From assembly GCA_016208585.1 (NCBI GenBank), contig JACQXR010000043.1, forward strand, positions 1-50,984: 50,984 nt of DNA, given 5' to 3'. A program made the translations under genes and the position numbers. This DNA comes from a candidate division TA06 bacterium. GTDB lineage: Bacteria; Edwardsbacteria; AC1; EtOH8. A model generated the notes under the pieces. It searched no databases. It had not been told where the DNA came from and saw nothing but the letters and a program-made list of their open reading frames with translations. The stretch's first letter is position 1. Every line of letters begins with the position of its first letter. Shown one piece after another: positions 3,408 to 50,546 of the stretch.

Positions 3408-4936
<1,529 letters not shown>

Positions 4937-45933: not shown

Positions 45934-45967
45934 AAAAAACCTTTAGCCTTTTGGCTAAAGGTTTTTT
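45934..45967 (+). terminator. Strong intrinsic terminator
   Basis: 15-bp stem (45934-45948 with 45953-45967) built on CCTTTAGCC/GGCTAAAGG with A and T runs, loop TTTT. It lies just outside the restriction-modification island. Confidence 0.9.
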
Positions 45968-45974
45968 GCAATCT

Positions 45975-46033
45975 GACTCCAGCGGTAGGGCTCGAACCTA
46001 CGACAATCCGCCAAGGGCGGATTAACAGCCGGA
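45975..46033 (-). pseudogene. tRNA-Asn 3' remnant (attachment-site half)
   Basis: On the minus strand the T-arm and acceptor 3' half of the tRNA-Asn at 48336 are repeated: 25 bases, 45977-46001, are identical to 48339-48363. Further in, CGGCTGTTAA of the anticodon loop is recognisable, but the region between is expanded by a small palindrome (AATCCGCC/GGCGGATT). The CCA end reads TCA. There is no 5' half, so this is not a working tRNA. Confidence 0.75.
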
Positions 46034-46190
46034 ATTGTTTAATCGGCATTTAAGGAATTCTCTGCCCGCTCCGCTTTTTAAGAATTTCTCCCTTGCCATG
46101 GCTCCGCTCCGGCTTGCATATTCTTCGGAGTAAATAAAATGAAAGAACTGGCTGATAGAATTATTATTAAATCTAAGTTTTTATATCTTC

Positions 46191-47330
46191 CTATTCCTCT
46201 TCATTTTTACCTTCGATAAATTTCTCATAACTATCAATTTTGGCAAAATCAATTTTATAATTCTGATTGTCTATCTTAGTGATTCTAACACTATCTATCC
46301 CCAAAAGTTTTAATTTATCATATGTCAACAGTTCGCCTTCTTTAAGGTTTAATACCTTTCTTAATAGCCAATCAGAAAGCGCATTATTAGGATTTGTCAT
46401 TAATGCTTTTGAGTTTTCTTGACAGAGTTTTGTACTTAAAGTTTCTGTTGTTGGAACATGTAAATTAAAAGGTGTCTCTCTGTCAGGAAAAAATTTTAGA
46501 TACTTGCTGTGAATAATATTAGGAACTGGAATATAAACCTCGCCGACATCTCTTGTTCTTCCACCTGCGTTCCATTGGTTTAATCCACTTTTTTCTGGAA
46601 CGACTTTATGACCAACCTTACTTTCTCTTAATGAATATAAAGGTAAAACTACAAAATTAACACCGGCTATTTCACGTTTGGTCAATCTTTTAATTTGTTG
46701 ATTAAATAATTGATGAATAAGTTGTAATGGGTCATCTAATATCTCAATATCTACTATTAGGGCATCTTGTGGTGTATAGAATTTTTTGAATAATGTGGTT
46801 TTGGAGAAATTGAATGAATATTCATTTTTACCGTCTTCAAACGAAATACTTGCTTCTTGAGTTTTTATTTTTTTAATATCATCTATATCGATTAAATCAT
46901 AGCTGGATTCAAATATTTTTAACAATTGTTTTTTTCGGGCCACGCAATGATAAATTGCTGATTTAATCCCATAGGTTCTGTTTGCAAATTCAATTCTTTC
47001 GTTTCTTAACTCAGATAGTCTAATGGCAAGATCATTCCCTGACAGTTTTCTTAATTGATTGCTAAAAACGTTCAGTTCTGTAATTTTTTCCGAGTTGGTT
47101 CCTTTGTCAATAAACGTTTTTAATCCAATTCCTACCTCTCCCATACGGGCATCATATGCCAAATCATCTCTTGATAAATTTTCTGCTTTAAACGCCTTGC
47201 AAAATATATTCTCAGCAATCCTATAATGCAAATAAGGAGTGTTTGACTCTGAGAATAATCTTGATAAAGAACAAATGGCTTTTAGATAGGCAATATAAGT
47301 ATTATTATGTTTTAAATTATTTTCGTTCAT
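46191..47330 (-). CDS. Type II restriction endonuclease, C-terminal NgoFVII-like DNA-recognition domain
   Basis: The 379-residue, AT-rich gene lies directly downstream of a DNA methyltransferase on the same strand (15-base gap). The C-terminal half has GEVYIPVPNIIHSKYLKFFP, LCQENSKALMTNPNNALSDWLL, the pattern of the B3-like DNA-binding domain of NgoFVII-type restriction enzymes. The N-terminal part includes DDLAYDARMGEVGIGLKTF, where Asp and the GLK Lys could belong to a PD-(D/E)XK-type nuclease core; that reading is tentative. It would cut unmethylated target DNA. The recognition sequence cannot be told. Confidence 0.65.
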   Translation of the reverse strand: MNENNLKHNNTYIAYLKAICSLSRLFSESNTPYLHYRIAENIFCKAFKAENLSRDDLAYDARMGEVGIGLKTFIDKGTNSEKITELNVFSNQLRKLSGNDLAIRLSELRNERIEFANRTYGIKSAIYHCVARKKQLLKIFESSYDLIDIDDIKKIKTQEASISFEDGKNEYSFNFSKTTLFKKFYTPQDALIVDIEILDDPLQLIHQLFNQQIKRLTKREIAGVNFVVLPLYSLRESKVGHKVVPEKSGLNQWNAGGRTRDVGEVYIPVPNIIHSKYLKFFPDRETPFNLHVPTTETLSTKLCQENSKALMTNPNNALSDWLLRKVLNLKEGELLTYDKLKLLGIDSVRITKIDNQNYKIDFAKIDSYEKFIEGKNEEE

Positions 47331-47345
47331 AATTTTTCCATTTGT

Positions 47346-48284
47346 TTAATAAATGTTTTTTAATGATAACTGGCTATTTATTGATATTTGTGTTTCTCTA
47401 ATGCGAGTTTCTGCAATCCTACAAAACTCCATGTTCATTTCAAAACCAATAAAGCGACGATTAGTAAAAATTGCGGCTACAGCCGTAGTACCGCTTCCTA
47501 TAAAGGGATCCAATACAATATCGTTTTCCTTTGAGGTAGTCAAAATTAAAGGCTTTATAAGTGAAACAGGATATGATGCTTGATGTTCCTTAAAAGGTTC
47601 AATACTATTTCTATAAATATCCCTATGGTTGTTTAATCTTTTAGCAATTTCTAAATCAAAATAATATCTTCTCGATTTTACAAAATGGAAAATATGCTCA
47701 TAAACAGGATAACGTCTATCTGGCGAGTAAGACGGTACAGGATTTGGCTTTTCCCAAATTATTTTATTGCGTAAAATCCATCCCTGTTCTTGCATACCTA
47801 TAGCAACACGTTCTGGAATCATTAAAAGTTGTTTGTATTGTAGATATTTGCCATTTGGTCTTATTATTTTATGCTCTCTGTAATGTATATCTGTTTTTCT
47901 TGCATATCTTCCCTTATTTCTAATAAAACCTTTTGTTCCAAAATAAACATCACCAATATTCAAATAAAAAGAACCGTCTTGACGCAAGATTCTTTTTAAT
48001 TCTATGGTGAATTGTAATAGATTACTAACATAGTCTAAAGGGGATTCTTCTCTACCTAATGTTTCATTGCCATAAATCCTGCATCCAAAATATGGTGGGC
48101 TTGTTATAATCAGATGGATAGAATTAGCAGATAAATTTCCTAGTAACTCTAAAGAATCTCCACAATATATTTTATTTACATTGTGATTTATCATATCTGA
48201 CTGATAAGCAAGTGTAGAAGTTACACCCTCTTTTACAAAAAGTTGTTTGTTTCTTTTTTGCTTATATAATACTTTTATTTTCAT
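47346..48284 (-). CDS. Type II DNA methyltransferase (N4-cytosine or N6-adenine, beta group)
   Basis: Motif IV TSPPY is at residues 61-65 and motif I LDPFIGSGTTAVAA is near the C-terminus, so the order IV-I marks the beta group; SPPY favours N4-cytosine but does not exclude N6-adenine. The target-recognition region lies between. The 312-residue form starts at 48284; an internal Met31 (MINHNVNKIYCGDSLELL) matches the usual start of such enzymes better and is a real alternative. AT-rich like its neighbour and unlike the flanking genes. It protects the host DNA from the nuclease at 46191-47330. Confidence 0.9.
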   Translation of the reverse strand: MKIKVLYKQKRNKQLFVKEGVTSTLAYQSDMINHNVNKIYCGDSLELLGNLSANSIHLIITSPPYFGCRIYGNETLGREESPLDYVSNLLQFTIELKRILRQDGSFYLNIGDVYFGTKGFIRNKGRYARKTDIHYREHKIIRPNGKYLQYKQLLMIPERVAIGMQEQGWILRNKIIWEKPNPVPSYSPDRRYPVYEHIFHFVKSRRYYFDLEIAKRLNNHRDIYRNSIEPFKEHQASYPVSLIKPLILTTSKENDIVLDPFIGSGTTAVAAIFTNRRFIGFEMNMEFCRIAETRIRETQISINSQLSLKNIY

Positions 48285-48335
48285 TTTTCACCTTAAAGAT
48301 ATATGTAAAGCCCAAGTTCGTCTGGGCGTCAAGTC

Positions 48336-48410
48336 TGGCTCCAGCGGTAGGGCTCGAACCTACAACCTTGCGGTTAACAGCCGCTTGCTCCACCATTGAG
48401 CTACGCTGGA
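48336..48410 (-). tRNA. tRNA-Asn (anticodon GTT)
   Basis: On the minus strand: acceptor TCCAGCG pairing with CGCTGGA, D-arm TAGCTCAATGGTGGAGCA, anticodon loop CTGTTAA with GTT, T-arm GTAGG-TTCGAGC-CCTAC, discriminator G and encoded CCA (48336-48338). The 3' half is duplicated at 45977-46001. Confidence 0.96.
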
Positions 48411-48547
48411 ACTTAAACGTTAATTATATTTTATTTTTAACTAACTGTCAAGTTGAATTTAAAAGAAAAAAACAGGAACATAGATTTCCTGCAAGCAGCG
48501 CGGTAATGCGCCCTGCGCTAAAAAAAAGAGATTGATTATAGCTTGGT

Positions 48548-50546
48548 TTACAAATTCCACAAATACGAAAGCTTGGCAACAATGGTACGGCTTTGCACTG
48601 CCAGGTTCCCCAAGGAATTGTCCCGGACCTCATTATATGCCAAATAAAAGATACTCCCCGGAGCAAAGCTCCAGCTTATCAGGCCGTTAAAATTATGGCT
48701 GTGGTCCGAGGTGTTCTGCTGGACGAAAACCCTTAAGGCAATGTCCTTGGTAAGCGAGTATTGAAGCCTTTGCCCGGAGGTCAGGTCGGCCCGGTGATAC
48801 TCCCAGCTTTGGTAATACTGCCAGATGTTACTGGCAGTGAAAGAAAAGGAAAGATTAGATAAAACATTAAGGCCGGACCATATTTCCAAGGTACGGCTAT
48901 GGCCGAAATAATTCCAATCGTAATTGTAGGCATCGTTTTGGGAAAAATTAAACCCCCCGTTCAGTTTTTTCCTTTCATCGGAGTTGATCCCGGCCCAATA
49001 GCTCATGGTTTTTTGCCAAACGCCCTCGACACATCCCCGGTTGACATCCGTCCCGCCCCAAAATCCCCAGGCATTAAAAGTGCTAAAGTCGAAATTAAAA
49101 GAAAAACCGTCGCCGTATTTATCATCACGGTATTGCTTGCCTCGGCCGCAAAACAACCCGGCCCATAAAGAGCTTATGCCAAGATTGCTTAAGTCAGGTT
49201 TGATTCCTCCTCCGGCCGCCCAGTTTTTATATCCGGCATCGCCCCGATAGCCGAACTTTTTGATGTAAAAATCCCGGCCGATATCCTTCAGGCCGAAGAA
49301 CAACTGGTAAGAATTAGCATCCCAGTTCAGGGAAGCCTCTCCCAAATTGCCATATAAACCGGAAGCCTGGTTGAGGGATCGGGCAAAAACTCCGGCCATT
49401 TTAAAGCGACTCGCAGTTACGTTGGCGTCGGCCACGAACACACTATTGACATCCCCGGGAACGGTGCGGTTGACGCCAAGCAGCCCAATGGTGGAGGATG
49501 AAAATATATCCTGGCGCAGGCGTAGTACGCTATAACTGGCATACGGTTCGGTGGCCGGCACGCCGTAGTCATCGTAATCCAATCCTCCGGTCCGGGCTAT
49601 TATGGCGCCCAAAGTGGTCCCCAAGGATTTACCGGTCAGCTTGCTTCCCCATAAAATTGGCACTGGAAAGGTTGATGTTCTGGGGATCGGCTTCTATTTG
49701 GGCAAAATCGGGATTTATGGTGATATCCCAGGCCATATTGGTGGTGGGCGCCCATTTGGCGTCCAATCCCAACTTGCCCGCAGAAATTCTTTGATTCGAA
49801 TATTTTTCGGTTCTCCCAAGACCATAAGGTAAAATCTCCAGGTTGCGCCCGGGCTTTATTCCGGATAACCCGCACAGTTTGCCGCATTTGGAGATCCGGG
49901 GGTAGCCTTCTTGTTTAGTGACCGGTTGCCAATATGACACTTCGTTATTTAAGGCGATGTACCTCCCAAAGTTTATGCCCCAGGTTTGATTTTCGCCGTC
50001 GGCGAAACGCAGGTTTTTAAAAGGAATGGCCAACTCGGCGGTCCATCCGCTAGTGTCTATTTTAACGGCCGAAGACCAAACGCCGTTCCAGCTCAAGTCA
50101 CTGTTTGCGCCATCCTCCGAAAGGTAAGCGTCTCCCTGAATGCCTTTGGGATTGATGAATAGCTTATAAGCTCCGCGTTTATCATTGTAAGTGTCCAGCA
50201 GGATAATCACTATATCCCCGTAATCGCCCTCCTCCCGGGGAATAAGCCGGGAGGATATTTTGTCGGGATGTTTATCCTGGCAGTAAAGCGCAAAATAAAG
50301 ATATTTACGGTCATAACAAATCTTTACTGCAGTTGACTCGATTGACGGCTGTCCCTCTTTAGGTGTTTTTTGGATAAACCCGGAAGCCGAAGGCAGGCTG
50401 TCCCAGCAAATATCCAACAAATCACCATCAATAACCGGGGCCTGTTCGGTAAAGACAGCCGGAAGGGATTGGCAACCTGGCGGTAAATTTTGAGCCGGGC
50501 AAATAGTGCTTGTTATTAAGCAAAAGACCAGAAAAAGTATTTTCAT
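48548..50546 (-). pseudogene. CBM9/DUF5916-type outer-membrane protein, internal deletion and frameshift
   Basis: The 5' part (start 50546) gives a signal peptide (MKILFLVFCLITSTICPA), a CBM9-like sandwich (~35-215: APVIDGDLLDICWDSLP, YLYFALYCQD, WTAELAIPFKNLRF) and the start of a DUF5916 barrel (WDITINPDFAQIEADPQNINLS). At about 49640-49660 the frame shifts and resumes as PVPILWGSKLTGKS, continuing through a long barrel to a C-terminal YLWNL at 48548. In intact relatives NINLS is followed by a FFPEKRPFFLEG-type block before the KLTGK strand; that stretch of perhaps 45-55 residues is absent. The barrel could still be made only if the shift were bypassed. Confidence 0.75.

Follow-up and report, generated by a model that had tools for sequence, protein, structure and literature searches.

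Duplicated tRNA ends are routinely taken for integrase attachment sites, and an insertion made by an integrase would exchange the 3' portion of the tRNA gene. The islands and satellites at tRNA genes, which carry tyrosine recombinases, resemble the locus described here in having foreign genes behind a tRNA together with a duplicated tRNA 3' end; here, however, there is no integrase, the units in related genomes measure only ~350 bp, duplications of 5' halves are at least as common, and the tRNA is altered at the wrong end. Group I introns with homing endonucleases in tRNA genes (PMC3984707) offer another parallel, as a nuclease gene exploits a conserved tRNA site and the host survives, but no intron is seen here and function would be maintained through an intact tRNA next to the scar, not by splicing. 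The closest known enzyme, SegB of the phages T4 and T6, is a free-standing GIY-YIG homing endonuclease, which cuts inside tRNA genes at the motif RAWTSGAAC and drives recombination-dependent tandem amplification of the tRNA together with segB, accompanied by truncation of the nuclease at its C-terminus; phages have their segB genes clustered close to tRNAs, and free-standing homing nucleases co-convert flanking DNA (PMC13096335; SegB is also treated by Brok-Volchanskaya et al. 2008, as cited in PMC2988022). The complementary strand of this motif reads GTTCSAWTY, which on our own reading would correspond to the tRNA T-arm. SegB and the present case have in common a free-standing GIY-YIG gene situated within or next to tRNA genes; the differences are that the genes treated below reside on bacterial chromosomes, encode putative nucleases of ~80-90 aa in lineages tied to one tRNA, and are accompanied by T-loop-truncated tRNA scars beside an intact tRNA, with only a relic of the nuclease in the window.

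The window (the whole stretch analysed, 50,984 nucleotides) is contig C43 of the draft genome of a candidate division TA06 bacterium (G000; 2.5 Mb, 167 contigs), which was compared with nine others (G001-G009); these ten genomes are called the family hereafter. It contains a foreign restriction pair without an integrase, flanked on one side by tRNA-Asn and on the other by a duplicated tRNA 3' end. Read in the direction of tRNA-Asn, the order is promoter, tRNA-Asn, 51 bp, methyltransferase, endonuclease, a short relic, the tRNA-Asn 3' half and a terminator:

48423..48451, minus strand: sigma-70 promoter TTGACA-17-TATAAT with 12 of 12 consensus positions, upstream of tRNA-Asn and conserved in family genomes
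48336..48410, minus strand: intact tRNA-Asn(GTT), found by ARAGORN
48198..48300, minus strand: leader, i.e. ribosome-binding region and first ~28 methyltransferase codons (YKQKRxKQLFVKEGVxST), matching the methyltransferase on contig C85
47346..48284, minus strand: N6_N4-type DNA methyltransferase, 312 aa (PF01555, E=1e-46), starting 51 bp past the tRNA 3' end
46191..47330, minus strand: type II restriction endonuclease, 379 aa (PADLOC type II REase profile, 455 bits), with a Pfam NgoFVII B3-like C-terminus
46022..46135, minus strand: GIY-YIG nuclease relic, the C-terminal 37 codons (IYSEEYASRSGAMAREKFLKSGAGREFLKCRLNNSGC, then stop), by alignment to the G001 and G007 proteins
45974..46033, minus strand: tRNA-Asn 3' half (nt ~31-75) with palindrome, by repeat match and comparison with the G001 fragment
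46005..46023, no strand: palindrome AATCCGCC-AAG-GGCGGATT, in the place of the anticodon-stem 3' strand
45934..45967, minus strand: terminator-like hairpin of 15 pairs at the end of the unit, palindromic and also downstream of a plus-strand gene

An earlier note on this DNA had described an AT-rich two-gene restriction-modification pair between tRNA-Asn and a repeat of its 3' end, and this description is borne out: both genes and the repeat are there, and the G+C content is 30-34% across the pair as against ~55% in the left and 46-52% in the right flank. The 25-bp repeat reported there (CTCCAGCGGTAGGGCTCGAACCTAC) is exact, at 45977-46001 and 48339-48363, but it is embedded in a 33-bp repeat (31/33 identical; 45972-46004 and 48334-48366, 2362 bp apart, blastn E ~1e-9), and its left copy comprises the whole tRNA-Asn 3' half. 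The palindrome was likewise correctly noticed, but it replaces the 3' strand of the anticodon stem and does not lie in the variable loop. The absence of an integrase also stands, as the island has no integrase-like ORF and no gene or remnant of an integrase or recombinase was found between the repeats, the content being methyltransferase, endonuclease and GIY-YIG relic. No terminator-like site was seen between tRNA-Asn and the methyltransferase, and the restriction pair probably is co-transcribed from the tRNA-Asn promoter. Upstream, a CBM9/DUF5916-type gene (48548-50546, minus strand) is split into two overlapping frames (49629-50546 and 48548-49663) in a frameshift-like manner; it sits between tRNA-Asn and a gene which comes directly after the tRNA region in G001 and G002.

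The restriction pair itself is ordinary; its setting is unusual. Both genes are adjacent, full-length ORFs matching the PADLOC profiles MTase_II and REase_II, and the pair is probably functional because both are intact. The methyltransferase contains the motifs TSPPY and DPFIGSGT, in an order which we take to indicate a beta-class N4-cytosine or N6-adenine methyltransferase, and has relatives in the PDB. The endonuclease (structure model with pLDDT 84) shares with R.NgoAVII, R.NgoFVII and R.BfiI a B3-like C-terminal domain (PF20731, E=6e-10; Foldseek to the 4rd5 B3 domain, E=5e-6, and to 4rct) and an adjacent methyltransferase. Its putative N-terminal catalytic domain was not matched to a known nuclease: Pfam gave no match, and full-length 4rct, compared with regard to a phospholipase-D-type nuclease domain, aligned to the model in Foldseek with TM 0.27 and rmsd 21. 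The residues D60 and GIGxK71 are invariant in this domain, which suggests a nuclease type other than phospholipase-D. Within the family the endonuclease is confined to G000. Ten other genomes have relatives (82% to 43% identity), none with a tRNA in the ~6-13 kb of surrounding DNA, so that the same genes located elsewhere without a tRNA repeat, named in the earlier note as evidence against an island, were found in part. In one of these loci (L101) the pair lies between hisB and xerC and starts 3 bp past hisB. An endonuclease 77% identical, together with a methyltransferase, is encoded in a prophage-like region of a Planctomycetota MAG (L102, 5028-7161), and the Pasteurella phage Pmp10 (OR544127) has a 46% relative annotated as hypothetical; no viral relative was confirmed in IMG/VR.

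Comparison of the tRNA-Asn locus among relatives suggests what the pair is lodged in. In the sister genome G001, tRNA-Asn and its 3' copy are spaced by 349 bp, filled by a single intact GIY-YIG gene, whose end lies inside the tRNA half, with its stop codon where the window relic has its own; G007, which belongs to another genus, has the same order, with an intact same-strand GIY-YIG gene directly behind tRNA-Asn and again the same stop position. The restriction pair is absent from tRNA-Asn in both. Upstream of the intact tRNA-Asn, both also carry a 5' fragment that covers nt 1 to ~57 and contains two further palindromes, and the occupied order in these genomes is promoter, 5' fragment with palindromes, intact tRNA-Asn, GIY-YIG gene, palindrome-bearing 3' fragment and terminator. 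Of these parts, G002 shows just the 5' fragment and the tRNA. Empty sites, which the earlier note had proposed to seek in sister genomes, were found in G003, G004, G005, G006, G008 and G009, where the locus consists of promoter, tRNA-Asn and terminator.

The window relic ends with a TAA stop inside the tRNA fragment, in its anticodon loop. Aligned with the GIY-YIG C-terminus of G001 it scores 111 (maximum of 2000 shuffles: 46) and with that of G007 107 (shuffle maximum again 46). It lacks the first ~50 codons, the catalytic domain is not intact in the window, and the fragment reaches only E=0.072 with PF01541, so Pfam alone would miss it. The tRNA 3' half is 93.7% identical to the corresponding G001 fragment over 63 nt and retains the family-type anticodon-arm sequence CCGGCTGTTAA. 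Its palindrome is found as TCCGCCnnnGGCGGA at the same place of the tRNA-Asn 3' half in G001 and G007; TCCGCCNNNGGCGGA occurs once in the window without mismatch, where 0.15 would be expected when one mismatch is tolerated. The loci retrieved from G001, G002 and G007 contain ten exact palindromes, nine of them within tRNA-Asn fragments; the only one of the window also lies in such a fragment, and a further one in a truncated tRNA-Pro copy of an unrelated genome, all counts referring to retrieved loci. TCCGCC-NNN-GGCGGA replaces arms of truncated tRNA copies, namely the D-loop, the anticodon stem and the T-loop (L017 1185, 1600, 1634; L067 1565, 1593, 2010, 2044; L024 5257, 5291; L165 1466; window 46007). 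Because repeat and palindrome bound a lone GIY-YIG gene in G001 and G007, the repeat predates the restriction genes, and so does the palindrome, being common to G001, G002 and G007. Judged from these comparisons, the duplicated tRNA end is part of an older GIY-YIG tRNA element, most of whose nuclease gene the pair would have replaced.

The tRNA-Asn of G000 is 87-89% identical to that of the nine other genomes, and the differences fall in nt 1-44; nt 45-75 are identical in G001 and others, with one further change in G004. The 29 nt of its D and anticodon arm are shared exactly with an unrelated genome (G134), and its acceptor and T arms are family-like. No donor of the allele is claimed, the best of 386 genomes reaching 92%, and among the genomes searched none was found that has tRNA-Asn together with this restriction pair. 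With nt 1-44 altered and nt 45-75 intact, the allele shows the opposite of an integrase trace and fits replacement by incoming DNA bearing tRNA-Asn sequence and the pair, although the mosaic could also reflect convergence in a common anticodon arm instead of import.

These findings bear on the view that a phage or integrative element at the tRNA-Asn 3' end decayed to the restriction pair, the left repeat being its distal attachment site. The direct repeat of the tRNA 3' end, the AT-rich foreign cargo, the insertion at the 3' side of the tRNA and the similar pair in the prophage-like region of L102 would all suit such a history, which we nevertheless regard as very unlikely: G001 and G007 possess the repeat, the palindrome and the adjoining GIY-YIG sequence but not the pair, no integrase trace is seen, the 3' part of the tRNA is unchanged while its 5' and middle part is altered, and the ten endonuclease relatives have no tRNA nearby. 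An integrase as maker of the repeat, either lost or acting in trans as the earlier note had proposed, finds no support, and the version in trans was rejected, since the same palindrome-bearing left copy is present without the cargo in two other genomes and since the window retains a GIY-YIG C-terminus.

We consider it fairly probable that the restriction pair is lodged in the scar of a tRNA-Asn GIY-YIG homing element, and that it came there by replacement and not as an integrase-dependent island. The locus would first have been occupied by a small element consisting of a GIY-YIG nuclease gene and tRNA pieces. As anatomy and the example of phage SegB suggest, the nuclease would cut tRNA genes in the T-loop, directly behind GGTTC, and repair from an occupied copy would insert the nuclease gene, rebuild one intact tRNA and leave a truncated tRNA scar; repeated rounds of such cutting and repair would leave the anatomy observed. 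In the lineage of G000, incoming DNA with tRNA-Asn-type sequence and the restriction pair may then have recombined at the occupied site, taking the place of the 5' fragment, of the central part of the tRNA gene and of the initial ~50 GIY-YIG codons, the right junction of the pair lying inside the GIY-YIG gene at ~position 46135. The pair would be a passenger, acting as an ordinary type II restriction-modification system.

The pair could also have travelled as cargo with an active GIY-YIG gene, in a composite homing element (tRNA-Asn, pair, GIY-YIG) whose nuclease decayed later. Its position exactly between tRNA and relic, the foreign-looking tRNA allele and the co-conversion of flanking DNA by free-standing homing nucleases (PMC13096335) would be in keeping with this, yet no intact composite was found, the first ~50 codons of the relic are missing right at the junction with the pair, which replacement fits as well, and another pair of the same genome, behind tRNA-Gln, shows no GIY-YIG trace; on balance a composite element seems unlikely.

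This second pair, unrelated to the first, is located on contig C85 (L026 1765-4258) and consists of a 396-aa methyltransferase and a 385-aa ORF with a weak EVE match. It is without an integrase, directly behind tRNA-Gln and between prs and spoVG, and is absent from the tRNA-Gln locus of the other nine family genomes. The leader DNA of the window matches that of C85 (L026 ~4028-4125) with 82% over 83 bp, a front end of ~100 bp, and the two methyltransferases share 81.5% over 81 coding nt in the leader as against 46.7% in their bodies; the L101 ortholog has 73% in its leader and 85% in its body. Similar leaders on diverged bodies imply either a swap of the front end between the two pairs or its import from one common source. 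It might be argued that restriction cassettes with a portable front end insert illegitimately behind transcribed host genes (tRNAs, or hisB in L101), the GIY-YIG scar being coincidental: both G000 pairs with the shared front end follow a tRNA, the L101 pair begins 3 bp past hisB, and the right ends of the two pairs have a weak 13-bp match. We find this quite unlikely, however, as the leader is also the diverged natural N-terminus of the methyltransferase family (L101, 73%), as it is absent from all other of 290 genomes, and as the junction lies inside the GIY-YIG gene. The missing GIY-YIG trace at the pair behind tRNA-Gln could mean that pairs reach tRNA sites by another route, which would count against the preferred reading of the window.

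Some further candidates around the two pairs were discarded. The leader was rejected as a general mobile-element end, given that only the two G000 copies exist among the 290 genomes, and the four matches of its pattern in IMG/VR include no methyltransferase. The shared 13-bp right end was equalled in 4 of 2000 shuffles and is too weak for use, and no claim is made for a degraded 3' copy of tRNA-Gln bounding the tRNA-Gln pair on the left (30 of 2000 shuffles). An HTH_ParB-like ORF (L026 1330-1767) is convergent to the tRNA-Gln-linked endonuclease, and its end shares the 13 bp with the right end of the window pair; it was dropped as a vector gene, having no viral relatives, and its weak matches in four other genomes have no tRNAs nearby.

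On the best reading, the window appears to be one case of a widespread tRNA-linked GIY-YIG architecture. The GIY-YIG genes of the ten family genomes form two groups, one adjoining tRNAs and one not, and a profile (A1) of 14 tRNA-linked proteins was searched in 241 genomes. Within the family 12 of 15 genes of the subfamily lie beside a tRNA and on its strand, 11 with a truncated copy across the gene, figures which are circular because the profile was built from tRNA-linked copies; those from outside the family are not. There, 14 of the 18 genes with scores of at least 90 are located no more than 150 bp from a tRNA, always on its strand, and 13 of the 18 are accompanied by a truncated copy of the neighbouring tRNA, usually across the gene. 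At scores of 70-90, nine of 28 genes are near a tRNA, at 45-70 one of 21, and among 25 control tRNAs that have no GIY-YIG gene close by, a truncated copy within 450 bp was seen for one. The target tRNAs include Cys, Pro, Ala, Tyr, Arg, Asp, Gly, Leu, Lys, Met and Gln. The unit comes in two arrangements, each the mirror image of the other: 5' fragment, GIY-YIG gene and intact tRNA, or intact tRNA, GIY-YIG gene and 3' fragment. Most truncated 5' copies break off in the T-arm, many of them precisely at GGTTC of the T-loop (five tRNA-Gln loci of G004, G005, G007 and G008, plus others). tRNA-Gln of G005 looks like a site to which the unit was added a second time, for its 5' fragment is preceded by the apparent remains of the end of a previous GIY-YIG gene. 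In a tree of 14 proteins, in which several forks are weakly supported, grouping follows the target tRNA across genera (Asn, Gln-TTG in part, Gln-CTG, Phe, Ser in part) and not the genome. Viral relatives of the subfamily were found at four loci, none with a tRNA, and the part of the literature covered gave no description of bacterial tRNA-linked GIY-YIG elements.

Small GIY-YIG genes may in general be widespread bacterial mobile elements, which home into the tRNA T-loop, rebuild the tRNA, leave scars, and lodge or spread defence genes together with a tRNA allele, a possibility we take seriously though it falls somewhat short of probable. The duplicated tRNA ends discussed here are better explained as scars of a ~350-bp nuclease-gene element which needs no integrase. 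If bacterial GIY-YIG proteins cut tRNA genes like SegB, this would provide a simple explanation for many truncated bacterial tRNA copies, a route for the movement of tRNA alleles and neighbouring defence genes, and a directly testable set of small proteins that each seem to be specific to a single tRNA gene.

Truncated tRNA copies may also form arrays: near a GIY-YIG gene in L178 (472-912 and 1446-1738), four copies of tRNA-Glu (nt 1-59) and three of tRNA-Pro (nt 1-58) were observed. tRNA-Ser genes have their 3'-terminal 20 nt repeated ~95-210 bp downstream with no GIY-YIG gene between (L037 2874-2893; L057 1237-1256; L063 1990-2009; L078 996-1015 and 1110-1129).
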